Positions 3,770 to 15,453 of a stretch of DNA of 59,984 bases are shown here, one piece after another. The translations under genes were made by a program, and so were the position numbers. Within the stretch, counting starts at the first letter, position 1; each line of letters begins with the position of its first letter. The stretch comes from Gammaproteobacteria bacterium (GTDB lineage: Bacteria; Pseudomonadota; Gammaproteobacteria; Pseudomonadales; Azotimanducaceae), in contig VYFT01000046.1 of the NCBI GenBank assembly GCA_009842245.1, positions 1 to 59,984 on the forward strand. The letters run 5' to 3'. Below the pieces are notes generated by a model. It ran no database searches and was not told the DNA's origin. It saw nothing but the letters and a program-made list of their open reading frames with translations.

Positions 3770-4993
3770 ATGACAACCAAGAAATCATCTACGGGCGCAA
3801 AGGTAAAAACACAGAAAAATGATCAAGTTACTAAGGACATAGCTCCGTCTGGCTCGTCTAGGCGCACCCAGCAGTCAAAAAAATCCCCGTCAAAGAAAAA
3901 TACTGCCTCACGCAGTGCTCGAGTGGTGCAGCGTCGTTCTCCGAATACTGAGGCTGCTTCCAAAGTAGTTTTGAAATCCGTAGCAAATTATGTCGCTTCT
4001 AAGCCAGACCCAGCCCAACTCACCGAAACGTCAAAAAGTCAGGCAAAAAAACGCAAGCAATCCACCGAGAAACAAGTACGTTCAAAGCAAGAGTCTCGCA
4101 CCCAGAAAGCAAAGATTCTAGATGAAGGAGCGAAGAAAAGAGCACCTCGTCCCGCCAAAAAGAGTGCGACCACGGAAAGCACTGCCAAAAAGCAACAACG
4201 GCCGACAACAAAGAAAAGAGCTACCAAAAAACAGAGTGCGAAAAGAGTTCAAAGTGCTATCCGAGATGCTGAAGTCCAGAAACCTGATGGCAAAAAAACT
4301 GAACGAAAACGACTTCGTCCGCAGACAAGAACGTCAAAGTCTACCGTAGTCAAGTCCAAAACTACTCCATCGAAACAGACACTTCCCGATACTCCGCCAA
4401 AAGCTTCACCTCGGAAGACTTCAGCTAAGGCAACGGATCAAGCAAAGAGAGCAACTGCAAAGACCAAGAGCAAGACTCAGGCAAAGAAAAAACCGAGTCG
4501 AAAGGTGAGGAAGTCTTCGGCACAGGCACGTACTCACCAGCCTGCAGAGAAACTTACTGATGATTTTGTCATTGGCTTCCAAGGGATCTACTACAAGCCA
4601 TACCGTCTCACCTCAAGGGACCTGTTCATGTCCGGCGCGCAACAGGATCACTTCATGGATATCCTCACACGCGCAAAAGAGAAACTACTGGCCGAAGAAG
4701 CTGACCGTGCAAGTCAATTACAAGAAAATGACGCGAGCAACCTTCCAGATCCGCTAGATCAAGGAACTAACGAAGGAGTTTTTCACAACCAGCTACGAAC
4801 ACGAGATCGAGAGAGTCAGTTGGTTCGAAAAATCAACCGCGCGATCGACTGTTTGAAGACTGGGTCCTACGGCTATTGCGAAGCATGCGGCTGTGAGATT
4901 CCAATTCGTCGATTAGAGGCAAGACCTATTGTGACTAAGTGTATCGACTGTAAAGAACGCGATGAATTACGCGAACGTCAGTTAGGTCAATAG
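3770..4993 (+). CDS. dksA: DksA-type RNA polymerase regulator with long basic N-terminal tail
   Basis: A 407-residue protein in two parts. Residues 1 to about 262 are low-complexity and rich in Lys, Arg, Ser, Thr, Ala and Gln, like eukaryotic H1 tails or AlgP-type proteins. Residues from about 264 to 407 are a complete DksA: coiled coil, then a zinc finger using C370, C373, C391 and C394, including the IRRLEARP block. DksA binds the RNA polymerase secondary channel and works with ppGpp in the stringent response. At the coiled-coil tip the usual D-x-x-D-x-A reads D327-P-L-D330-Q-G332, so the alanine (E. coli A76) is glycine here. Typical DksA is about 150 residues, so the tail is an unusual fusion. 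The ATG opens an uninterrupted frame through the tail, which argues against mis-assembly. The next gene starts 275 bases downstream. Confidence 0.9.
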   Translation: MTTKKSSTGAKVKTQKNDQVTKDIAPSGSSRRTQQSKKSPSKKNTASRSARVVQRRSPNTEAASKVVLKSVANYVASKPDPAQLTETSKSQAKKRKQSTEKQVRSKQESRTQKAKILDEGAKKRAPRPAKKSATTESTAKKQQRPTTKKRATKKQSAKRVQSAIRDAEVQKPDGKKTERKRLRPQTRTSKSTVVKSKTTPSKQTLPDTPPKASPRKTSAKATDQAKRATAKTKSKTQAKKKPSRKVRKSSAQARTHQPAEKLTDDFVIGFQGIYYKPYRLTSRDLFMSGAQQDHFMDILTRAKEKLLAEEADRASQLQENDASNLPDPLDQGTNEGVFHNQLRTRDRESQLVRKINRAIDCLKTGSYGYCEACGCEIPIRRLEARPIVTKCIDCKERDELRERQLGQ

Positions 4994-5228: not shown

Positions 5229-5246
5229 GAGCCACCCAGATCACTA
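5229..5246 (+). repeat. 18-base leader motif shared with array gene 3
   Basis: GAGCCACCCAGATCACTA here differs by one base from the copy at 9607-9624. Both lie just before an almost identical ribosome-binding segment (GAGGAAATTGATCC then ATG). The conservation could reflect recent duplication or a site acting on translation. Confidence 0.6.
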
Positions 5247-5268
5247 ATTCATGAGAGGAAATTGATCC

Positions 5269-7107
5269 ATGAAAAATTTATTTAAAGTTCTCGGCCTGCT
5301 GTGCATTTTTGCTTTCGTGGCAGTTTGGAGTTATGCAAGCCCATCCATGCCCTACAAGATTACAGGCGAACTCATTTCAATAGAACCGGAAGTTAAAGAA
5401 GGAGAAGCGGCACAGTCCGAGGACGATGCTGAGGCTGAAGTGACTCCTACAGAAGATCCAGCATTCGAACCTGTTGACCTATCCGAAGCAACGCTGACGG
5501 TTTCGTATGACACGCCCAACGCAGAAGGAGAGACCGAAACAGTAGTGCTGTTCGAAGGTCCATACCAAGAGAATTTTGCGAATGTAGTTCAAGTATCAGA
5601 ACCTACCGAAGTCAAAATCTCGCTACAACTTACCGAAGATAGCGCTCCTATGACGATAAACGCCGTTATAGGTACAAATTCTGATGTTCGTTTTGCGTAC
5701 TTAGACCGACCAGGTCCACGCGACCAATTTCTACTCGTTGGATCTACAAATCAAGTGATGAATCCGGAGAATCGGTTTTCCATATCGGGAGACTTGGGCT
5801 TTCTCGGTTCCGATATTTCGAGCGTGACAACAGTTTCCGTGGACGTTATGTATTTCGATGACGAAGGACAACGCCGATTCAAATCTTGGGGAACAGTCCT
5901 ATTAAAGAACGACTCGTTTTCAATTGAAGGAGATGTAGATCGTCCTCTGATGGCGCGAATGTGGGTCAACGACGGCAACAACTATTACACTAGGGCTGAT
6001 GTCATTCTCGAACCGCAATCAGATCTAGTCGTATCACAGTTAGGAAACCAAACTCAGGAGCTAGGCGTAACGAGTGGAAGTGGATACCACAGCAAGCTTG
6101 TTGAGAGTTATCAACAAGACAGTAAATACATCTCTATGATCGAAGCTTATGCTACCGAATACGACCAATACATTAAACGCTGGGAGGCTGGGGAACCGGA
6201 ACCTGAAGCGTCAGATGATGAGGACTCCGATGTAGCAGAAAGCGAGAGTGATGACGAAGGTTCTTCCGAGTCAGAAGATGTCGTCGAGACGCTTACGCCC
6301 GCAGAAGGTTGTGAAGACGCCGTCGCTCAAGAGACCGACATCCCAGATTCGTCCTATACACCTCCAGCTTACTATCGATTACAGCAAAAAGCGACTGCGT
6401 TCAAAAATGACAAGTTAATCGAAATCGCTGAAGGCGATGAGGATCCAATGGCGCGCTATCTAGCTCTCGAATTTGGCCCGTACGGATATTTCGACCCAGA
6501 ATCGCAACTCGCTGCCACGCAATCGCTTGTTGAAGAGTTTGACGAGCAATTCGTTGAATCCAACTTAACGCCAAAAATTGAACAACTTGAGATGAGTTTA
6601 TTGCTTGTCAATAACGATGCGGCATTGGTACCGGGTCAAAAAGTCCCTGAGTTTTCATTAGCAGACTATGATGGCGAAGATCGTTCGCTATATAGTCTAT
6701 TAGCTGATAACGATATAGTCTTAATCGACTTTTGGGCATCTTGGTGCGGACCCTGCATCGCTGACTTTCCCGAACTCAAGAAGCTCCATGCTGCTTACAC
6801 CGACGAAGATTTTGAAATCGTAGGGGTGTCCATTGACAGCACGCAAGAAGATTGGATTGGTGGTGTTGACGAGCACGAACTGCCTTGGATCAACCTTGGT
6901 GAAGTGAAGGGCTGGGAAGGACCAGTGTCAACCATGTATGGCGTGAACGCCATTCCGAAGGGCTTTCTAGTCGATTCGCAGGGATGTATTTATAAGAAGA
7001 ACATCCGACCTGCTGCACTGAAAGATTTCCTCGTCGATCGTTATGGCTTGGATGAATCATTAGAAGAGCCAGAAGAAACGGAAGACGCACCCGAGGTTTC
7101 TAGCTAA
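5269..7107 (+). CDS. Exported TlpA-like thioredoxin-fold protein, array copy 1
   Basis: A 612-residue exported protein. Residues 1-23 form a signal peptide with a likely cleavage after SYA. Residues about 28-285 are beta-rich and resemble the DUF4369-type domain found before TlpA modules (ends in a GDVDRPLMARMWV / SGSGYH pattern). Residues about 300-345 are an acidic Glu/Asp/Ser linker. A helical region follows to about 450. Residues about 460-595 are a TlpA/ResA thioredoxin fold with FWASWCGPCIADFPELKKL, active-site C493 and C496, and a cis-proline in NAIPKGF. The tail is acidic. Besides C493/C496 the mature chain has only C348 (AEGCEDA) and C573 (SQGCIY), both kept in all four copies. Predicted to do disulfide reduction or isomerisation in the periplasm; the target is unknown. 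The start has a strong GAGAGGA site. Confidence 0.88.
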   Translation: MKNLFKVLGLLCIFAFVAVWSYASPSMPYKITGELISIEPEVKEGEAAQSEDDAEAEVTPTEDPAFEPVDLSEATLTVSYDTPNAEGETETVVLFEGPYQENFANVVQVSEPTEVKISLQLTEDSAPMTINAVIGTNSDVRFAYLDRPGPRDQFLLVGSTNQVMNPENRFSISGDLGFLGSDISSVTTVSVDVMYFDDEGQRRFKSWGTVLLKNDSFSIEGDVDRPLMARMWVNDGNNYYTRADVILEPQSDLVVSQLGNQTQELGVTSGSGYHSKLVESYQQDSKYISMIEAYATEYDQYIKRWEAGEPEPEASDDEDSDVAESESDDEGSSESEDVVETLTPAEGCEDAVAQETDIPDSSYTPPAYYRLQQKATAFKNDKLIEIAEGDEDPMARYLALEFGPYGYFDPESQLAATQSLVEEFDEQFVESNLTPKIEQLEMSLLLVNNDAALVPGQKVPEFSLADYDGEDRSLYSLLADNDIVLIDFWASWCGPCIADFPELKKLHAAYTDEDFEIVGVSIDSTQEDWIGGVDEHELPWINLGEVKGWEGPVSTMYGVNAIPKGFLVDSQGCIYKKNIRPAALKDFLVDRYGLDESLEEPEETEDAPEVSS

Positions 7108-7114
7108 AAGTTGG

Positions 7115-7137
7115 GACGTTCCGCCTTGCGGTTCGTC
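7115..7137 (+). terminator. Small inverted repeat after array gene 1
   Basis: GACG-tt-CCGC-ctt-GCGG-tt-CGTC, eight bases after the stop codon of gene 1. It could be an mRNA-stabilising hairpin or part of a two-hairpin terminator with the next element. There is no strong T-run. Confidence 0.35.
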
Positions 7138-7152
7138 TATTTACATTCAGAT

Positions 7153-7205
7153 GAGTGCCTAGCCGCGTAGGTGATTAGTAAGTACCCGACGCGCGCTAGG
7201 CACTC
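7153..7205 (+). terminator. Hairpin terminator candidate after array gene 1
   Basis: GAGTGCCTAGC (7153-7163) pairs perfectly with GCTAGGCACTC (7195-7205), an 11-base-pair stem immediately followed by CTTTT. The loop is 31 bases and itself contains complementary CG-rich parts. It would separate gene 1 from gene 2, so each copy is probably its own transcription unit. Confidence 0.6.
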
Positions 7206-7299
7206 CTTTTACATCTTCTACAGACTTCTCACCGCTCACGACATGCCCTACGTCCGACAGACTAGTGAGACCGCTGTTAAGTACGGTAATTCCTTCCGT

Positions 7300-7330
7300 T
7301 AAAATAGCATTCCTCGTTATCGGGATGAGG
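7300..7330 (+). promoter_or_regulatory. Conserved leader block of array gene 2
   Basis: TAAAATAGC (7300-7308) and GATGAGG (7324-7330) match in order and spacing the TAAAATAGT / GTTGGAGG pair of genes 1 and 3. It lies 116 bases before the start of gene 2. Likely promoter and leader; function inferred from repetition only. The 308-base gap 7108-7415 holds only this block and the hairpins. Confidence 0.35.
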
Positions 7331-7415
7331 TGTCATGTGATTCAGTTTCAAAACTCGAACACCTACTACATCTTCCGTTGATAACGCTAAATAACTGTCG
7401 TGAGGAAATGTACCA

Positions 7416-9260
7416 ATGAAAAAATTATTTGATTACATCAGCTTGTTTAGCGCTTTGGCATTGTTGGTAATCTGTGTTCACGCTAATGCATCTATACCCT
7501 ACAAGATTAAGGGTGAAGTAATCTCCGAGTTACCCGAAGTATCCGAACAAGACGAGACAGAGGCAGAAACGGACGGCGATGAGTCCAATGTGGTTGAGGA
7601 GGAATCAGAAACTTCTACTGAAACTCCAGCAGTCGAGCCAGTGAACCTCTCCGACGCAGTTCTGACTATTTCTCACGAAGTGACCAACGATGAAGGTGAA
7701 GTTGAAACGACTATACTTTTGGAAGAACACTTTAACGGTGATTTTGACTACGAAGGCGTGATTGATGAACCGACAGAGGTTAAGATCACACTGAAGGTCT
7801 CTGAAGACTTGGAGCCTATGGAAATTGATACCGTCATCGGCACGGGTCGAGTTATTCATTTTGCCCTACTTGACAATCCCGGCCCGGGAGATGGTTTTTC
7901 ACTCCTTGGGACTTCGAGCACTGTATTAAATCAGAAGAATAAATTCACTATTACAGGTGATTTGAGCTTTCTGGGTGTCGATCTTGATAGAACGATGATC
8001 ATGTTCACTTGGGACAAGATGGGTGCTGACGGTGAATCCCGACGTCATACGAGTGAACTTTTGACACACAACAATTCCTTCGTGATCGAAGGTGATACGT
8101 CAATACCTCAAGTTGCAGACTTGTATGTGATCGGATCGGAAGTTCCAGGGTTTTTTCTTATATTCGATGTCGTGTTGGAACCACTAGGAGAGTACACTGT
8201 TTCGCAATTAGGCGACCTCTCCGAGGAGATCAGTGTTTCCAGTGAATCGGGATATCACGCTCTGCTCATCGATAGCTGGCAACAACAAGAAGACTACCTT
8301 GCTTTAAAAGAAGAGATGGCGAAACAGAATGAGTGGTTGCAAGAACTAATTGATAGTGGAGCTGAAGACACAGACGATGCTGACGACAAAGCTGAAGTAG
8401 TTGCTGTTTCCACAACTCCAGCGCCGGCGGAGGGTTGCGAAGACACAGTTGCCAAAGCAGAAGAGGAAGACGTTTCACAATCCAAGGACGTCGTAAAGCA
8501 CAAGACACTGAGGTCGAAGATAGCGGCTATGAAACAGGATTTAGACAATCGTCGAGCGCAAGCAATTAAAGAAGTCGCGAAAAACCACAAAGACCCTATG
8601 GCTCGTTATTTAGCGGTTCGGCTGAACCCTTGGGGTAGGCTCGAATACTCTCCGCGAATTTCCATTCTTCGAGAGCTTGAAACAGTCATGGAAGCAGACT
8701 TCGTTTCAGTCCACATCACGCCATTGATTGAAAGAATGGAGCGTTCAGCGTTGAAAGCAAACAACGACACGAATCTTGTCGTCGGGCAGCGGGTCCCAGA
8801 GTTTAGCTTAGCGAACTATGACGGTGAAGATGTAGCACTATTCGATCTCCTTGGGCAAAGAGATCTGGTACTGATCGACTTTTGGGCGTCTTGGTGCGGA
8901 CCTTGCATCGCGGACTTTCCGGAACTCAAGAAGCTTTATTCTGCGTACGAGGATGAAGGATTTGAAATCGTTGGTGTTTCAATCGATGACAACATGGAAG
9001 ATTGGAAAGAAGGTGTAGACGAACATGAACTGCCTTGGGTCAACCTCGGTGAACTCAAAGACTGGGGTGGCCCTGTCGCAGTAAGTTATGGTGTTAGTGC
9101 AATCCCTAAAGGATATCTCGTCGACTCTCAAGGATGTATTTATGAGAAGAACATTCGACCTGCCGCGCTGAAAGAATTTCTAGTCGATCGTTATGGCATG
9201 GATGAGTCGTTAGAAGAACCGGAAGTCGAAACCGACGACGCGCCAGAAGTCTCAAGCTAA
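7416..9260 (+). CDS. Exported TlpA-like thioredoxin-fold protein, array copy 2
   Basis: A 614-residue paralogue of copy 1. Signal peptide 1 to about 25 ends in ANA. The N-terminal beta-rich domain begins YKIKGEV and ends near SGYH. The acidic linker is shorter than in copies 3 and 4 and carries the conserved AEGCEDT cysteine. A Lys/Arg-rich helical stretch follows (KHKTLRSKIAAMKQDLDNRR), then the TlpA domain with FWASWCGPCIADFPELKKL and cis-Pro in SAIPKGY. The SQGCIY cysteine and acidic tail ending in EVSS are kept. The start has GTGAGGAAATG upstream as a ribosome site. Substrate and partner are unknown. It could serve as a redox chaperone for envelope proteins, but no target gene is adjacent. 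Confidence 0.87.
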   Translation: MKKLFDYISLFSALALLVICVHANASIPYKIKGEVISELPEVSEQDETEAETDGDESNVVEEESETSTETPAVEPVNLSDAVLTISHEVTNDEGEVETTILLEEHFNGDFDYEGVIDEPTEVKITLKVSEDLEPMEIDTVIGTGRVIHFALLDNPGPGDGFSLLGTSSTVLNQKNKFTITGDLSFLGVDLDRTMIMFTWDKMGADGESRRHTSELLTHNNSFVIEGDTSIPQVADLYVIGSEVPGFFLIFDVVLEPLGEYTVSQLGDLSEEISVSSESGYHALLIDSWQQQEDYLALKEEMAKQNEWLQELIDSGAEDTDDADDKAEVVAVSTTPAPAEGCEDTVAKAEEEDVSQSKDVVKHKTLRSKIAAMKQDLDNRRAQAIKEVAKNHKDPMARYLAVRLNPWGRLEYSPRISILRELETVMEADFVSVHITPLIERMERSALKANNDTNLVVGQRVPEFSLANYDGEDVALFDLLGQRDLVLIDFWASWCGPCIADFPELKKLYSAYEDEGFEIVGVSIDDNMEDWKEGVDEHELPWVNLGELKDWGGPVAVSYGVSAIPKGYLVDSQGCIYEKNIRPAALKEFLVDRYGMDESLEEPEVETDDAPEVSS

Positions 9261-9282
9261 CCGATTAATAAATAGTCTTTGC

Positions 9283-9298
9283 GAGTAGCTGACTACTC
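9283..9298 (+). terminator. Short hairpin after array gene 2
   Basis: GAGTAG-ctga-CTACTC, a perfect six-base-pair stem 23 bases after the stop of gene 2. It has no T-run and is probably a 3' mRNA structure accompanying the next hairpin. Confidence 0.4.
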
Positions 9299-9358
9299 AT
9301 GGTCGGCTTGCTGACTTATGCCGTCGGCAGAAATCGATTCTTGTTCTGGTGAATGAAC

Positions 9359-9391
9359 AGTTCGCGCGGGAAACAATTGCTCACGCGAACT
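9359..9391 (+). terminator. AGTTCGC-type hairpin after array gene 2
   Basis: AGTTCGCG (9359-9366) pairs with CGCGAACT (9384-9391), followed by CTTGCATTC. Related hairpins with AGTTCGC arms occur after gene 3 (11679-11708) and gene 4 (14099-14136), so the element was copied with the genes. Terminator or bidirectional boundary is the likely role. Confidence 0.5.
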
Positions 9392-9450
9392 CTTGCATTC
9401 ATCTCAGTACTGCGCACCACGCTCAAACTCTCGTAATTTTCTCAAACGCA

Positions 9451-9530
9451 AGGATTCCACAAACGAACTAGCATCACAAATCGTACTTGACACGTTGAAG
9501 TAAAATAGTAATACAACACAACGTTGGAGG
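9451..9530 (+). promoter_or_regulatory. Upstream block of array gene 3
   Basis: Contains AGGATTCCACAAAC (9451-9464), repeated with one change before gene 4 (12004-12017); TTGACA (9486-9491); TAAAATAGT (9501-9509); and GTTGGAGG (9523-9530), the last two shared with gene 1. TTGACA is a good -35 match, but its spacing to TAAAAT is too short for a normal promoter, so the true start is open. The 389-base gap 9261-9649 holds this block, the hairpins and the leader motif only. Confidence 0.4.
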
Positions 9531-9606
9531 ACGAAGACTTTTAACCGCAGTCAGAAACTATGTCGCGCGCGAGGAATACCTCCTCCATCCAAGCTCAAAC
9601 ACTCTT

Positions 9607-9624
9607 GAGCTACCCAGATCACTA
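9607..9624 (+). repeat. 18-base leader motif shared with array gene 1
   Basis: GAGCTACCCAGATCACTA, one base different from 5229-5246. The following CGCGAGGAAATTGATCC is also nearly the same as before gene 1. Confidence 0.6.
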
Positions 9625-9649
9625 TATATTTTCGCGAGGAAATTGATCC

Positions 9650-11560
9650 ATGAACTACTTTCAAAGAATTCTTAGCCTGTTATGCGTCTTCGCGCTGTTT
9701 GCGATATGCAATGCAGGTAACCCACATGCGTTTAACGTATTTACGGGCGAAGTTATCACAATTGAACCAACAGTTTCAGACGAAGCCGTCGAGACTGAAT
9801 CCGCATCAACAGACGCACCGACAATCGAGCCCGTAGATTTTTCCAACGCAGTCTTGACAATTTCATACGAAACAACAAACTCAGAGGGAGAGGTCGAAAC
9901 CGAATCGATCTACGAAGGTTCGTTTAATGAAGACTTCGTATATGTCCCCATGGAAAACAACGGGCGATCCCCTGATTTCTCGGAACCGACTGATCTCAAG
10001 ATTTCGCTCAAAATTTCTGAAGACAGCGAGCCGATGACCATCAACACTGTTATTGACCAAGGACGTGATTTTCATTTCGCATATATAGACCATCCTGGTC
10101 CGAGAGATGAATTTCTTTTAAAGGGGTCAAGCAGTCAAGTCATGAACTCAGAGAACAAATTTACCGTAACTGGACATCTCGGTTTTTTGAACAACGATTC
10201 TCTGCACACTACATCGGCGTTTGTGTGGGCGACATTTAGAAACGCTGACGGCGACCGACAGTCTAAGCAATTCGGACCTGTCCTCGTGGAGGATGGATCG
10301 TTTTCGATTGAAGGAGACGTAGACCGACCTACGTCAGCAACTTTGTACATTCGAAATCAAGCTAGCTTCGTCAATGCTACTGCTAGTCTCGTTCTGGAAC
10401 CGGATGGCCACCTTGTAGTTGCAAAGTTAGGAAACCAGACACAAGAAATTAGTGCAGTGAGCGGCACTGGCTACCACGCGCAATTGATTGAGAGCTGGCA
10501 ACAGAGCAACGAGTACGTTGCACTTGTTGAAGCGTGGACCACTGAGCAAGAACGCGCCCGCAACGCACCACCCGAACCTGCTGAAGCGTCTGATGAGACA
10601 GAAGCTGAAGGAACAACCGACTCCGAAGAAGATGTTGCTGATAACGAAGAAGAAAGCGAAGCTGACTCTGAAGACGCATCGGAAACCGAAGTAAGTGTTG
10701 AACTAGTTGATGCTGTCGAACCAGCAGAAGGTTGTGAAGATGCAGTGGCTCAAGAAGAGGAAGAGGAATCTGAACCAGAAGTGCAAACGACAGCGTACGA
10801 GTATCCGAAGTGGTATACATTGAGAATGGAAGCGTCTGCTTTCCGAACTGAGAAGTTGCAGGACATCGCAAAGAATAGCGAAAGTCCACATGCTCGACTA
10901 CTAGCTATGCAAATGGGTGTATTCAGTCCGTACGATGATGCAGAAGAAGCTTTGACTGTGTGGCGATCTCTCGCTGAAAGTTTTGCTGATGACTTTGTAG
11001 CTACCTACATCACACCAGAGATGGAAAGAATTGAACTGGTACACACTCGTACCCTAAACGATGAAGCTCTGATTCCTGGTCAAAAAGTACCTGAATTTAC
11101 GCTCGCAAGTCTAGAAGGTGAAGACGTAGCAATCTACGACCTCGTGGGAGAAAAGGACATGGTCCTGATTGACTTCTGGGCTTCTTGGTGTGGTCCCTGT
11201 ATTGCAACTTTCCCCGAGCTGAAGAAACTTCATGCAGCCTATACCGACGAAAATTTCGAAATTGTGGGCGTGTCAGTCGATGACAATTTTGAAGATTGGT
11301 CAGGCGGCGTTGAAGAACATGAACTACCATGGGTGCAACTCGGTGAATTAAAGGACGCTGACAACGGTAGTCCGGTGTCAAAGAGCTATGGTGTAAACTT
11401 CATCCCCAAGACTTTCTTGGTTGATTCTCAAGGTTGTATTTATCGAAAGAACATACATCCAAATGAATTGAAGACCTTCCTCGTTGATCGATACGGGATG
11501 GATGAATCACTGGTAGAACCGGAAGAAGAGCCGGAAGAGTCCCCGGAAGTCTCGAGCTAA
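9650..11560 (+). CDS. Exported TlpA-like thioredoxin-fold protein, array copy 3
   Basis: A 636-residue paralogue. The N-terminal 23 or so residues are a signal peptide (hydrophobic core to AICNAG); the cysteine there does not sit in a convincing lipobox. The N-terminal domain resembles copy 1 closely (DHPGPRDEFLLKGSSSQVMNS-like segment). The acidic linker is long (about residues 300-370, dominated by Glu, Asp, Ser and Ala) and ends with the conserved AEGCEDA. The TlpA domain has FWASWCGPCIATFPELKKL, one substitution from the other copies, and cis-Pro in NFIPKTF. The SQGCIY cysteine and the acidic tail ending EVSS are kept. Strong GAGGAAA ribosome site. Predicted periplasmic thiol-disulfide role; substrate unknown. 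Confidence 0.87.
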   Translation: MNYFQRILSLLCVFALFAICNAGNPHAFNVFTGEVITIEPTVSDEAVETESASTDAPTIEPVDFSNAVLTISYETTNSEGEVETESIYEGSFNEDFVYVPMENNGRSPDFSEPTDLKISLKISEDSEPMTINTVIDQGRDFHFAYIDHPGPRDEFLLKGSSSQVMNSENKFTVTGHLGFLNNDSLHTTSAFVWATFRNADGDRQSKQFGPVLVEDGSFSIEGDVDRPTSATLYIRNQASFVNATASLVLEPDGHLVVAKLGNQTQEISAVSGTGYHAQLIESWQQSNEYVALVEAWTTEQERARNAPPEPAEASDETEAEGTTDSEEDVADNEEESEADSEDASETEVSVELVDAVEPAEGCEDAVAQEEEEESEPEVQTTAYEYPKWYTLRMEASAFRTEKLQDIAKNSESPHARLLAMQMGVFSPYDDAEEALTVWRSLAESFADDFVATYITPEMERIELVHTRTLNDEALIPGQKVPEFTLASLEGEDVAIYDLVGEKDMVLIDFWASWCGPCIATFPELKKLHAAYTDENFEIVGVSVDDNFEDWSGGVEEHELPWVQLGELKDADNGSPVSKSYGVNFIPKTFLVDSQGCIYRKNIHPNELKTFLVDRYGMDESLVEPEEEPEESPEVSS

Positions 11561-11583
11561 AGGACGCTTTTTAATTTACAACC

Positions 11584-11631
11584 GCATACCGATGATTGAT
11601 TTTCGAATCATATTGAAAGCCATCGGTATGC
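11584..11631 (+). terminator. Long hairpin after array gene 3
   Basis: GCATACCGATG (11584-11594) pairs with CATCGGTATGC (11621-11631), an 11-base-pair stem. Inside it TGATT-ttcg-AATCA (about 11597-11610) forms a second small hairpin. It lies 24 bases after the stop of gene 3. Confidence 0.55.
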
Positions 11632-11678
11632 ATTAACACACTCGCGAATCGCAAGTCGTGCGTCATACGATTGAATAG

Positions 11679-11708
11679 TTCGCACGGGAATCTTCCTACC
11701 CGTGCGAA
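11679..11708 (+). terminator. AGTTCGC-type hairpin after array gene 3
   Basis: TTCGCACGGG (11679-11688) pairs with CCCGTGCGAA (11699-11708), a perfect 10-base-pair stem with a 10-base loop, followed by TTTC. It belongs to the same hairpin family as those after genes 2 and 4. Apart from this and the motif at 12004, the 537-base gap 11561-12097 shows no credible gene. Confidence 0.6.
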
Positions 11709-12003
11709 TTTCAATCCTTCATCTCTTTCTGACTTTCTCTTCGTCGATACCAAATCACGAATTTGTGGTAGTGGTACGCACGAAACAAGTTTTAAAGAGA
11801 GAGTCCAAACACTCAACATTTCGTACTTTTCTGCGATATAGACTTGGGTAGGACAGCTATTTGAAAGTTATCGAATCAGAGCTCCGCACCGGTCTATTGA
11901 AATTCTGCGCACACTAAGCTGATTACAATTATCCGTCTCAAAATGTCTGTCGACACGAGGATTTATTGCGCGACACGTCCCATCTTTGAGACCACGCCAT
12001 AGC

Positions 12004-12017
12004 AGGATTCCATAAAC
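12004..12017 (+). repeat. Upstream motif shared with array gene 3
   Basis: AGGATTCCATAAAC matches AGGATTCCACAAAC at 9451-9464 with one change. The next 40 bases also align loosely (TACTTGACAC before gene 3, TACTTAATACAC here). It indicates that upstream DNA was duplicated with the gene. Confidence 0.5.
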
Positions 12018-12097
12018 AGCTTGCTAAATTTTTACTTAATACACTACATTTTCGAAACACACACATCTCAACATTGAACATACGACGAGGTCAATCA

Positions 12098-14008
12098 ATG
12101 AAAACACTACTCAAAACCCTCGGTTTGCTGTGCATCGTACCTTTGTTCGTTGCATGCACTCAGAATCAGGCACCGACGCCCTACAAAATTACGGGTGATT
12201 TCATCTCCATGCATCCAGAGCTATCCGAAGAAGTAGCGCCTGGCGATGAAACTTCGACCGATGAGGCTGAAACCGAAGAGACTGAAGCGGAAACACCATT
12301 GGAGCAAGAGGTGGATACATCGCTTGATCTTTCTAATGCTACGTTGACGATTTCATACGAAACCACAGATCGGCAAGGTAACGTCGAAACGATCTCTTTG
12401 GTTGAACAAGCCTTCGATGGAAATTTCGAATTCGAAAGCGAAACTATAGAACCCACCGAGGTAACTATTTCGCTGCAGGTTTCAGAGGACACAGACCCAA
12501 TGGAGATTAATACTGTGATCGGTACTGGGCACGATATACACTTCACGCTGATTGATCATCCGAGCCCGAGAAACCCTCAGTTTGTGTTAGCGGGCACTAC
12601 TAGTTACGTCATGGACCCAGAAAGCAAGTTCGTTGTATCAGGTGACCTTCGCTTTCTCGATGTAGATCTAACCGAAGACACCACAGTATTAGCGTATGCA
12701 CGAGTCTATGATGAAGAGGGCAATAGTAGTTGGCAAGAGTGGGGTCCGGTGTTGGTGCAAGACAATTCCTTTCACATCGAAGGCGATGCAAAGGAACCCC
12801 TTGTAGCAACACTGAACATCAGTGGGAGCAATTACTACGGTAGTACGAGCATGATTCTTGAGCCCCATGGAGACTACACAGTAGCTAAATTGGGTAACCA
12901 AACGGAGGAATTAGGAACCACGAGCGGCTCAGGATACCACGCTATGCTCATCGAAAGTTGGCAACAGACCGATGAATACATCGATTTGGTCGATGCCTGG
13001 ACGACAGAGTTTGAATTATTTAGAAATCCTCCCGAACCCTCCGAGTCGGAAGAAGTTGAAGCACAAACACCCAAAGACGAAGACGCTGGGGATGTTGCGG
13101 TTGAAGAAGAAGTTGATGATCTAGAAGAAGATGCCGCAGACAACGAAGAGTCTGACGCTGATGCAATTGAACTTGTCGCTGCCGTGGAACCAGCGGAAGG
13201 CTGTGAAGACGCAGTCTCGGAAGATTCGCAACAACCAGAGCCTTTTTCATCGTCTCAAAACTACGTACCGAAATACTATACGCTACGAGAACAAGCTCGA
13301 GAAGTACGGGCAAAGACACTTCAAACACTTTTTGAATCGAGCGAAGACTCTACGGCGCAGTATCTCGCCATGGCTCTTGGGCCATATACAGACCGCGCAA
13401 AGACTCTCTCCGGATGGCAATCCCTAGAAGTTAAGTTCGACGAGAAATTTGTTGCGGCGCGGATCAAACCGGAGATAGACTTTCTGAATTGGTCGGTCAC
13501 TGCTCAAGCAAACAACGCGGCTCTTATTCCTGGACAACGCGTTCCTGAATTTACGTTGGCAAACGCAATGGATGAAGACTTAGCTCTATATGATCTACTC
13601 GGAGAAAAGGATATGGTGCTGATTGATTTTTGGGCTTCTTGGTGCGGACCCTGTATCGCAGATTTTCCCGAACTCAAGAAACTTCATGCAGCTTACCAGG
13701 ATGAAGACTTTGAAATCGTGGGCATTTCCATCGATAGCGAAAAAGAAGACTGGATCGAAGGTCTCGAAGAACACAAGCTACCATGGATTAATCTCGGTGA
13801 ACTTAAGGATTGGGAAGGTCCAGTAGCTACCAGTTACGGTGTCATGGGAATCCCAATGGGTTATCTTGTCGATTCGCAAGGGTGTATCTACGACAAGCAC
13901 GTTCGCCCTGCTGCGTTAAAGGAGTTTCTTGTCAATCGATATGGCGAGGATGAATCCCTCGTGGAACCAGAAACAGAAACCGACGACTCACAGGGAGTCT
14001 CCGGCTAG
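12098..14008 (+). CDS. TlpA-like thioredoxin-fold lipoprotein, array copy 4
   Basis: A 636-residue paralogue. I start it at ATG 12098 rather than the upstream in-frame TTG 12074. GAGG at 12087-12090 is correctly spaced for 12098, and the resulting N-terminus MKTLLKTLGLLCI parallels copies 1 and 3. The signal peptide ends in FVA-C20 (CTQNQ), a fair lipobox, so unlike copies 1-3 this one is predicted to be lipid-anchored. Asp is not at +2, so outer-membrane sorting is possible. The rest follows the family: beta-rich N-domain, long acidic linker with AEGCEDA, helical part, TlpA domain with FWASWCGPCIADFPELKKL, cis-Pro in MGIPMGY, the SQGCIY cysteine, and an acidic tail. Substrate unknown. Confidence 0.87.
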   Translation: MKTLLKTLGLLCIVPLFVACTQNQAPTPYKITGDFISMHPELSEEVAPGDETSTDEAETEETEAETPLEQEVDTSLDLSNATLTISYETTDRQGNVETISLVEQAFDGNFEFESETIEPTEVTISLQVSEDTDPMEINTVIGTGHDIHFTLIDHPSPRNPQFVLAGTTSYVMDPESKFVVSGDLRFLDVDLTEDTTVLAYARVYDEEGNSSWQEWGPVLVQDNSFHIEGDAKEPLVATLNISGSNYYGSTSMILEPHGDYTVAKLGNQTEELGTTSGSGYHAMLIESWQQTDEYIDLVDAWTTEFELFRNPPEPSESEEVEAQTPKDEDAGDVAVEEEVDDLEEDAADNEESDADAIELVAAVEPAEGCEDAVSEDSQQPEPFSSSQNYVPKYYTLREQAREVRAKTLQTLFESSEDSTAQYLAMALGPYTDRAKTLSGWQSLEVKFDEKFVAARIKPEIDFLNWSVTAQANNAALIPGQRVPEFTLANAMDEDLALYDLLGEKDMVLIDFWASWCGPCIADFPELKKLHAAYQDEDFEIVGISIDSEKEDWIEGLEEHKLPWINLGELKDWEGPVATSYGVMGIPMGYLVDSQGCIYDKHVRPAALKEFLVNRYGEDESLVEPETETDDSQGVSG

Positions 14009-14199: not shown

Positions 14200-15453
14200 T
14201 TGCCGAAACTTAAACGACACAAAAACCTAATTGATACGGCACAAATACCGAACTCTGTACGACGCATAGTTCAGAAGCTGCTCGACAATGGATATGACGC
14301 AAAACTCGTCGGTGGCTGTGTCCGCGATCTCCTACTAGGCACTAAGCCTAAGGACTTCGATGTGGTGACCAGTGCGACACCGCTTCAAGTTAAGCGTATA
14401 TTTAAACATGCGCAAATTATCGGTCGCAGATTTCGCATTGTGCATGTCAAGTCTGAGATTGGTGTCGTTGAAATCTCCACCTATAGAAAGACTGGCATAG
14501 ACCGCAAAGATCCCGCCACTCCGACGCGATCCTTGGTGCGAAGTCCAAAACAAGTCGGAACGATGAAGAAAGATCATCTACTACGCGATTTCACAGTAAA
14601 TGCGCTCTACTTCGACATCAAGCGCAATGTCATCTTTGACTACGTCGGTGGTTTACGAGACCTAAAGTACCGGCAGTTGAGATGTATTGGCGATCCAGAA
14701 ACTAGATTCCATGAAGACTGCCACCGTCTTCTACGGGCATTACGATTCGTATCAAAGACAGATCTGAAACTCACGGAAGAACTTGATCGGTCTCTGCATT
14801 CCCAGAGAGATCTGCTACAACATTTAGAACCACACCGATTGAGCTACGATCTCGAGAAAATGCTTCTGCATGGCTACGCTCGTGCCCTCTTTCGAAACTT
14901 TGCGAAGTACAAGTTCTTAGCCTATATCTTTCCGGAAATCGAGAGCAATAATGCGTTGACTCTAGCTGCTTTAAAAAACACAGATCAACGAGTTAAAAGG
15001 GGAAAACCGGTTCGCTTTGCGTTTTTACTCGCTGCTTTCTACTGGCATCACTATCGTGATCTTAATATTCGCAACGACCGCGAGGCCGAGATTCTTGCGG
15101 CAAAGAAAGTTTTGGAGATTCCATCCCAACGAATAGCTCTGCGAGCTGATGTACGGGACTTCGTAATTGAAACATGGCGTTTGCAAGCGAAGCTGGAAAA
15201 TCGTCCCTTACGTAACGGTAAACAGGTGCTTCAGCGTAAGCGTTTTCGAGCAGGTTATGACTTACTGTGTATGCGTGCCAACCTTAGCGACGCTAATCAG
15301 GAGATCGCAAGCTGGTGGACTAAAATTCAAGAAGTACCGGAGACTGAGCAAGAACAGATGCTCAAAGAAGTGTCCCCCGTTCGAAAACGTAAATCTAAAC
15401 GTCGTCGAAAACCCCGTAGAACGAGTCAACAAGTCATAGCTGCCTCTTCATAA
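14200..15453 (+). CDS. pcnB: Poly(A) polymerase I
   Basis: A 417-residue class II nucleotidyltransferase that adds 3' poly(A) tails to RNA and promotes decay. The catalytic signature LVGGCVRDLLLG...DFDV carries metal-binding D52 and D54. The following IIGRRFRIVHV segment matches poly(A) polymerase rather than CCA-adding enzyme. The C-terminus is strongly basic (RKRKSKRRRKPRR), as in PcnB, and would bind RNA. The start is TTG 14200 with GGGAAGG just upstream; no better start is in frame. It heads a same-strand run pcnB-panB-panC-pgi-acs. folK, which usually follows pcnB, is absent here. Confidence 0.93.
   Translation: MPKLKRHKNLIDTAQIPNSVRRIVQKLLDNGYDAKLVGGCVRDLLLGTKPKDFDVVTSATPLQVKRIFKHAQIIGRRFRIVHVKSEIGVVEISTYRKTGIDRKDPATPTRSLVRSPKQVGTMKKDHLLRDFTVNALYFDIKRNVIFDYVGGLRDLKYRQLRCIGDPETRFHEDCHRLLRALRFVSKTDLKLTEELDRSLHSQRDLLQHLEPHRLSYDLEKMLLHGYARALFRNFAKYKFLAYIFPEIESNNALTLAALKNTDQRVKRGKPVRFAFLLAAFYWHHYRDLNIRNDREAEILAAKKVLEIPSQRIALRADVRDFVIETWRLQAKLENRPLRNGKQVLQRKRFRAGYDLLCMRANLSDANQEIASWWTKIQEVPETEQEQMLKEVSPVRKRKSKRRRKPRRTSQQVIAASS

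Follow-up and report, generated by a model that had tools for sequence, protein, structure and literature searches.

What a gammaproteobacterium gains from four large exported TlpA-like proteins encoded side by side is the question raised by positions 5269-14008 of contig VYFT01000046.1. Positions 1-59,984 of this contig form the whole stretch analysed here (the window, in whose coordinates all array positions are given), and the genome to which it belongs is labelled G000. The array turns out to be a small part of a clade-wide expansion (15-42 against 0-4 profile matches per genome), and the reading that we favour, with a probability of roughly 0.55, is that a single DsbD feeds many exported TlpA reductases that differ in their client-binding parts and whose founder is probably encoded beside DsbD. 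Proteins combining DUF4369 with TlpA are already known as a kind. DUF4369 itself belongs to the domains of unknown function, and the presence of many exported TlpA proteins in some bacteria still calls for an explanation. No description of the duplicated domain, the linker cysteine pair, the catalytically dead members or the scale of the expansion in one gammaproteobacterial clade was found in the literature searched. This clade opens both the function of the DUF4369-like domains and the link with DsbD to direct tests, since it combines a steep difference in match numbers with a visible likely founder locus, natural dead-enzyme controls and a near-perfect co-occurrence of cysteines.

A clade-wide expansion of exported TlpA proteins

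The array consists of four consecutive intact open reading frames (ORFs) on the plus strand (Table 1), and the original prediction of four adjacent genes for proteins of 612-636 residues built to one plan was confirmed by the ORFs, by their matches to Pfam AhpC-TSA and by their acidic linkers. The copies are 45-50% identical in pairwise alignments (50-53% to copy 1 in the multiple alignment) and have in common 300-nt blocks of 67-73% identity at the nucleotide level. These shared blocks, together with orthologues in other species and purifying selection, argue that the array is more than a product of chance. For copy 4 the ORF finder proposes an alternative TTG start at 12074, which would give a protein of 644 residues.

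A search with copy 1, in which at most 34 candidates were scored per genome, returned 43 matches in G000, 1-49 in 17 genomes of the same genus and 2-13 in 20 others. A profile of the region from the linker to the C-terminus, built from the members of G000 and applied at E ≤ 1e-12 to the 18 genomes of the genus, separates ten match-rich genomes (G000 31, G004 42, G007 42, G013 30, G014 27, G002 25, G011 24, G008 20, G010 16 and G006 15) from eight match-poor ones (G017 4, G009 3, G016 3, G003 2, G015 2, G001 1, G005 0 and G012 0), these counts being profile matches and not curated genes, in which the pieces of one gene may count twice and a few other TlpA proteins are included. The completeness of G001, G012 and G003 is 77-87% (77-78% for G001 and G012). 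Names among the genome records (SB06.., CO36404bin, Plut) may point to metagenome-assembled genomes from sponges and corals. The ten rich genomes form a single clade in the tree of one gene, pcnB (support 100/100), and the 25 untruncated classified members of G000 alone account for 1.6% of its genome. Some copies in relatives are split over two reading frames (L069:10114-11768 and L071:10654-12540), either by gene decay or by assembly error.

Within the same bacterial family, 22 of 120 genomes match a full-length profile at E ≤ 1e-20, six of them from the genus and 16 others (up to ten candidates scored in each), and the array is to this extent less odd in a gammaproteobacterium than the original prediction had supposed. 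At the level of the class, a single one of 370 sampled genomes matches at E ≤ 1e-35, which is G000 itself (up to six candidates scored in each); the proteins are not the common single-copy housekeeping proteins of the class that had been considered as the opposite outcome. The expansion seems to be specific to one small lineage.

Two DUF4369-like domains in front of a TlpA domain

In all four copies Pfam AhpC-TSA (E 7.4e-16 to 3e-19) identifies a TlpA/AhpC-TSA domain, which has the active-site motif WASWCGPC in the multiple alignment, and Asp plus Glu make up 30-40% of an acidic stretch 47-75 residues long, so that the Glu/Asp-rich linker and the thioredoxin domain described earlier are both present throughout. 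The claim of one DUF4369-like domain stands in part. Homology to DUF4369 holds at the level of the family, in which 33 of 39 N-terminal regions match it at E ≤ 0.1 (best 2.1e-9), but the window copies score under the Pfam gathering cut-off and there appear to be two such domains instead of one. The window proteins are therefore named DUF4369-like and not members of PF14289. Four relatives from the genus do pass the cut-off (L052:8947 with 30.9 bits, L059 with 25.3, L205 with 25.3 and L232:877 with 30.6). No Pfam family other than DUF4369 matches the N-terminal region of more than one of the 39 members, and a sequence search with the N-terminal part against solved structures gave no match (best E 0.11).

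The duplication was examined with hhalign on an alignment of 73 diverse full-length proteins of 540-729 residues. The first domain, D1 (residues 22-162), and the second, D2 (residues 163-275), match each other with Prob 98.4 and 98.6 (E 1.1e-14 and 9.6e-16), and control comparisons with reversed profiles, the TlpA domain and the helical part gave Prob 3.1 or less; from only 22 close sequences the match is weak (Prob 0.7-0.8). Judged from these profiles, the N-terminal half most likely represents two DUF4369-like domains arisen by domain duplication. Because the DsbD-adjacent proteins of G009 and G015 (503 and 492 residues) show a single weak DUF4369 match directly after the signal (23.5 and 20.0 bits), the extra domain was probably gained with the expansion.

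By inspection, copy 4 contains the lipobox-like sequence LFVAC with Cys20, and the N-termini of copies 1-3 resemble ordinary export signals. A lipobox-like pattern, defined by a loose regular expression, occurs in 43 of 77 proteins of four genomes. Elsewhere in G000, an 817-residue fusion protein (L051:3544-5997) joins an FGE-sulfatase (SUMF1-like) domain to a TlpA domain and has a sub-threshold DUF4369 match.

A cysteine pair that may join linker and catalytic domain

Apart from the active site, two cysteines are invariant in the multiple alignment of the four copies, one in a PAEGC motif of the linker and one in an SQGC motif within a hairpin of the TlpA domain. They co-occur across the family: among 149 untruncated proteins, left from 172 distinct ORFs after dropping those that run off a locus or lack the hairpin column, both cysteines are found in 78, neither in 69 and one only in 2, which makes 147 of 149 concordant, many of the proteins being orthologues and hence not independent. 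Of the two discordant rows, one is an incomplete frame of 273 residues (L070) and the other belongs to the outgroup (L018). A tree of 118 proteins requires at least six joint changes of the two cysteines, three of them forced by supported branches. From this pattern we infer that the linker and hairpin cysteines may form a structural disulfide. At the active site, the dipeptide within CxxC is GP in 56 of the 77 proteins from the four genomes, AP in 7 and one of seven others once each; L045 (= L050:9900-11717) has the active site WASWCGWC, and its profile match is in two pieces.

The DsbD and TonB-dependent receptor locus

Genes of the DsbD type (PF02683) were sought in all 18 genomes of the genus. 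Most contain one, each of the ten rich genomes contains exactly one, and none was found in G012. In 14 of the 18, DsbD lies tail to tail with a family member, with a single ORF between the two in G010 (195 residues) and in G014 (490 residues, without a Pfam match). The exceptions are G003, in which DsbD stands beside a receptor and the TlpA genes are on another contig, G001, in which the weak match lies elsewhere, G005, which has no match, and G012. At the head of the TlpA genes is a TonB-dependent receptor, identified by Pfam in all four loci scanned (G000, G006, G009 and G015); in G009 the receptor gene is separated from the first TlpA gene by 4 bp, and two TlpA genes overlap by 4 bp (mechanical start calls). 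The DsbD of G000 has DsbD_N, transmembrane and thioredoxin domains and scores far below the NCBIfam cut-off for DsbD (131 against 330 bits). Upstream of it lies a gene for a second protein with a DsbD_N domain only (L052:2022-2939), and genes of similar size are found in L232 and L236. DsbB is present in 17 of the 18 genomes.

In related genera, DsbD itself carries an extra C-terminal TlpA domain (Table 1), as identified by Pfam in G088 and G023 and by motif in G120; in G066 DsbD and TlpA are separate neighbours. The earlier suggestion of a dedicated envelope redox system is supported by these fusions and by the family members that adjoin DsbD in the genus. In the midpoint-rooted tree of the family, an expanded clade of 85 rows (97*) joins the DsbD-adjacent proteins of G009, G015, G016 and G017 (100*) through a branch with support 91. 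As far as this rooting can be relied upon, the DsbD-adjacent member is probably the founder of the family.

A model for electron transfer to many TlpA proteins

In the model that we propose, the founder would have belonged to a locus encoding the membrane reductase DsbD, at least two TlpA proteins and a TonB-dependent receptor, and the product of the founder would have served the receptor. Cytoplasmic thioredoxin would be the source of electrons, which DsbD would pass across the inner membrane to the CxxC motifs of many different TlpA proteins. Whether periplasmic or lipid-anchored, these proteins would in turn reduce disulfides or other oxidised thiols of their envelope clients. The client would be chosen by the pair of DUF4369-like domains together with the linker and the helical part, the putative disulfide between linker and hairpin would clamp the linker to the catalytic domain, and members without CxxC would act as binding proteins only. 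A more elaborate version, possible but tentative, is that of a one-to-many electron network in which a single DsbD supplies dozens of TlpA proteins, the duplicated recognition domains assign each of them to its clients or receptors, the conserved disulfide between linker and catalytic domain works as a clamp or as a redox switch, and the dead members are binders or competitors.

Several observations weigh against the model of a single DsbD feeding many TlpA reductases. The four window genes and DsbD are on different contigs, and both G009 and G017 have two DsbD-type genes. The system is dispensable in the wider genus, since G005 and G012 have no match and G001 has one weak match. With respect to DUF4369, the four window proteins reach 14.7-23.0 bits against a Pfam gathering score of 25, and a Pfam scan at E ≤ 0.01 detects no DUF4369 in the TlpA part of the DsbD fusions. 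CxxC is lost in 7 of the 77 proteins of four genomes, a loss that a pure reductase reading leaves unexplained and from which it follows that not all members can be redox enzymes. Finally, the ratio of nonsynonymous to synonymous substitution (omega) within copy 1 is 0.02-0.08 for the TlpA domain, up to 0.15 for D1, 0.17-0.32 for D2 and 0.10-0.38 for the helical part; with D1 constrained and the helical part as variable as D2, diversification cannot clearly be assigned to the DUF4369-like pair.

Some of these points would be expected of a repertoire of binding proteins, in which the N-terminal pair has diversified to bind various ligands or receptors and the TlpA domain has been kept mainly as a scaffold. 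All seven proteins devoid of CxxC keep both extra cysteines, six of the seven fall in one clade spread over the four genomes (support 94, not starred, with one long-branched row), and the omega of D2 in copy 1 exceeds that of its TlpA domain. Such a repertoire is nevertheless rather unlikely: CxxC is retained in the other 70 proteins, the TlpA domain is the most constrained part of copy 1, with D1 constrained as well, and redox chemistry is suggested both by the location next to DsbD and by the fusions.

Orthology, divergence and selection of the window copies

Whether the copies are specialised or merely add to the dosage of one function had been left as an alternative by the original prediction, and their history favours specialisation. 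For every window copy a separate orthologue is present in both G004 and G007 (that of copy 2 lies at a second locus, L070 10113-11987 in G004 and L068 12096-13970 in G007), and the orthologues of copy 1 are 82-85% identical. Synonymous divergence (dS) between the paralogues is above 3 or saturated, and omega over the whole genes is 0.07-0.26 for all four copies, which indicates purifying selection. On this orthology and divergence, a four-gene dosage array was rejected. The broader idea that many copies raise the reducing capacity of the envelope as a general defence against oxidative or metal damage, with the differences between them being incidental, has some circumstantial appeal, as a six-gene array (C12) of G000 adjoins an outer-membrane efflux gene (Pfam OEP, L050:16800-19001) and genes that on inspection resemble resistance-nodulation-division (RND) metal efflux genes, and thioredoxin-fold proteins have been tied to oxidative stress elsewhere (PMC7084401). 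However, efflux neighbours were noticed at one of 15 mapped stretches of G000, and dosage predicts near-identical copies instead of divergent paralogues each with its own orthologue in two other species, which makes this defence distinctly improbable. Neutral or selfish amplification with ongoing decay, to which the split or truncated copies in relatives (L069, L071) and the in-frame stops in some matches could be attributed, is very unlikely and is contradicted for the window copies, which are intact and under purifying selection.

When G000 is compared with the other species, copies 1 and 2 have a dS of 0.61-0.78, about half that of copies 3 and 4, pcnB and panB (1.00-1.85); among the other species the dS of copy 1 is not low. 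The low values for copies 1 and 2 (5269-9260) are a weak hint at recombination. Growth of the array in place from one pcnB-adjacent gene is unsupported: G010 has a single family gene beside pcnB, which groups with C12-type proteins and not with the window copies.

Expression, flanking genes and other families

The intergenic gaps within the array measure 308, 389 and 537 bp. Copies 1 and 3 have in common a leader ending in GAGGAAATTGATCCATG (window 5230-5268 and 9610-9649), conserved in 5 and 4 species, respectively, and the leaders of copies 2 and 4 differ from it. These gaps and conserved leaders make separate transcription of the copies likely. A promoter scan was uninformative (3 found vs 12.5 in shuffles), and no known structured RNA was found at the array, the Rfam search over the window returning two tRNAs only. 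The array is flanked by a dksA-like gene and pcnB (Table 1), and inspection of the ORF list places panB/panC among the flanking genes. In the DksA-like protein the DksA domains start only at residue 291, being preceded by an N-terminal extension (about 290 residues) with many Lys, Arg, Ser and Ala.

Four proteins of 607-674 residues with no Pfam match over the cut-off are encoded near TlpA copies at three loci, of which one lies in a relative (L051:8163-10019, L056:1372-5257 and L068:9932-11755). Inspection of G000 also revealed additional repeated families whose members are small and look exported (L050:41-4008; L053:3102-7253; L051:12275-15082 and L057:8391-8981), and three such proteins that were scanned gave no Pfam match at E ≤ 0.01.

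Table 1. Features of the tandem array and its flanks (window coordinates) and DsbD-TlpA fusions of related genera (locus coordinates).
Feature	Position	Strand	Basis
dksA-like gene, upstream flank	3770..4993	+	Pfam DksA_N and zf-dskA_traR
Copy 1, TlpA-family protein, 612 aa	5269..7107	+	ORF calling, Pfam, multiple alignment
Copy 1 D1, DUF4369-like, first of two (about residues 26-162)	5344..5754	+	hhalign D1 vs D2
Copy 1 D2, DUF4369-like, second of two (residues 163-275)	5755..6093	+	hhalign; Pfam DUF4369 19.4 bits at 192-250, cut-off 25
Copy 1 acidic linker, residues 284-344, 36% D+E	6118..6300	+	composition
Copy 1 linker Cys348 (PAEGC)	6310..6312	+	alignment; co-occurs with hairpin Cys across family
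Copy 1 active site C493-G-P-C496	6745..6756	+	alignment
Copy 1 hairpin Cys573 (SQGC)	6985..6987	+	alignment
Copy 2, 614 aa	7416..9260	+	ORF calling
Copy 2 linker Cys341	8436..8438	+	
Copy 2 CxxC	8895-8906	+	
Copy 2 partner Cys574	9135-9137	+	
Copy 3, 636 aa	9650..11560	+	ORF calling, Pfam
Copy 3 linker Cys362	10733..10735	+	
Copy 3 CxxC	11189-11200	+	
Copy 3 partner Cys596	11435-11437	+	
Copy 4, 636 aa from ATG	12098..14008	+	ORF calling, Pfam
Copy 4 linker Cys369	13202..13204	+	
Copy 4 CxxC	13643-13654	+	
Copy 4 partner Cys596	13883-13885	+	
pcnB (poly(A) polymerase), downstream flank	14200..15453	+	Pfam PolyA_pol plus two further PolyA_pol domains
DsbD with extra C-terminal TlpA domain, related genera	L233:2147-5518		Pfam
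DsbD with extra C-terminal TlpA domain, related genera	L235:2896-6174		Pfam
DsbD with extra C-terminal TlpA domain, related genera	L234:2720-5968		motif

Comparison with known systems

A role in cytochrome c maturation is extremely improbable in spite of the similarity of the TlpA domains to DsbE/CcmG (NCBIfam TIGR00385), as all four copies score 54.5-67.9 bits against a cut-off of 123.15, are flanked by dksA and pcnB and not by ccm genes, and coexist with a separate 183-residue CcmG-like gene that by inspection lies in an apparent ccm cluster (L064). For ResA (PRK03147 subfamily) the copies likewise stay below the NCBIfam cut-off, with 59.0-76.3 bits against 170.

The closest likeness is to the DUF4369-TlpA proteins of Bacteroidota, which show the same order of DUF4369, helical part and TlpA domain with WASWC-x-x-C. 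The five that were compared are shorter (374-396 residues), contain a single DUF4369 that in all five passes the Pfam cut-off, lack an acidic linker on inspection and in no case have both extra cysteines (the protein of L246 has one Cys upstream of CxxC and none in the hairpin), whereas in the window proteins the DUF4369-like domain is doubled and both the linker and the Cys pair are present. Two of the five Bacteroidota genes have neighbourhoods with TonB-linked receptors: in L245 TlpA is followed by a receptor, and L247 has the order SusC-SusD-TlpA-cysteine synthase with CcdA further on. A link of TlpA proteins with receptors also emerges from the literature on Bacteroidota. A 2026 preprint on Muribaculaceae describes a thioredoxin-domain outer-membrane lipoprotein near TonB transporters and names DUF4369 in the legend of the figure showing its domains (PMC13404670). 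A second study lists a DUF4369 protein in iron-response tables of Bacteroidota (PMC10434189), and according to the preprint this protein is upregulated in three of three species (PMC13404670). Another exported thioredoxin-domain protein tied to uptake is the hemin-binding HBP35 of Porphyromonas gingivalis, in which a thioredoxin domain is combined with an Ig-like fold; it differs in being secreted by the type IX secretion system (T9SS), and the likeness is one of description only, taken from the preprint (PMC13404670). To name iron or heme as the substrate of the window proteins would be a guess.

The functional parallel lies with the membrane reductases of the DsbD/ScsB type. These reductases work with periplasmic thioredoxin-fold partners, as in the pairs DsbD-CcmG, DsbD-DsbC and ScsB-ScsC. 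The proposed system resembles them in that the DsbD of G000 is encoded beside TlpA genes, and differs from them in that a single DsbD would here supply the proteins behind 15-42 profile matches.

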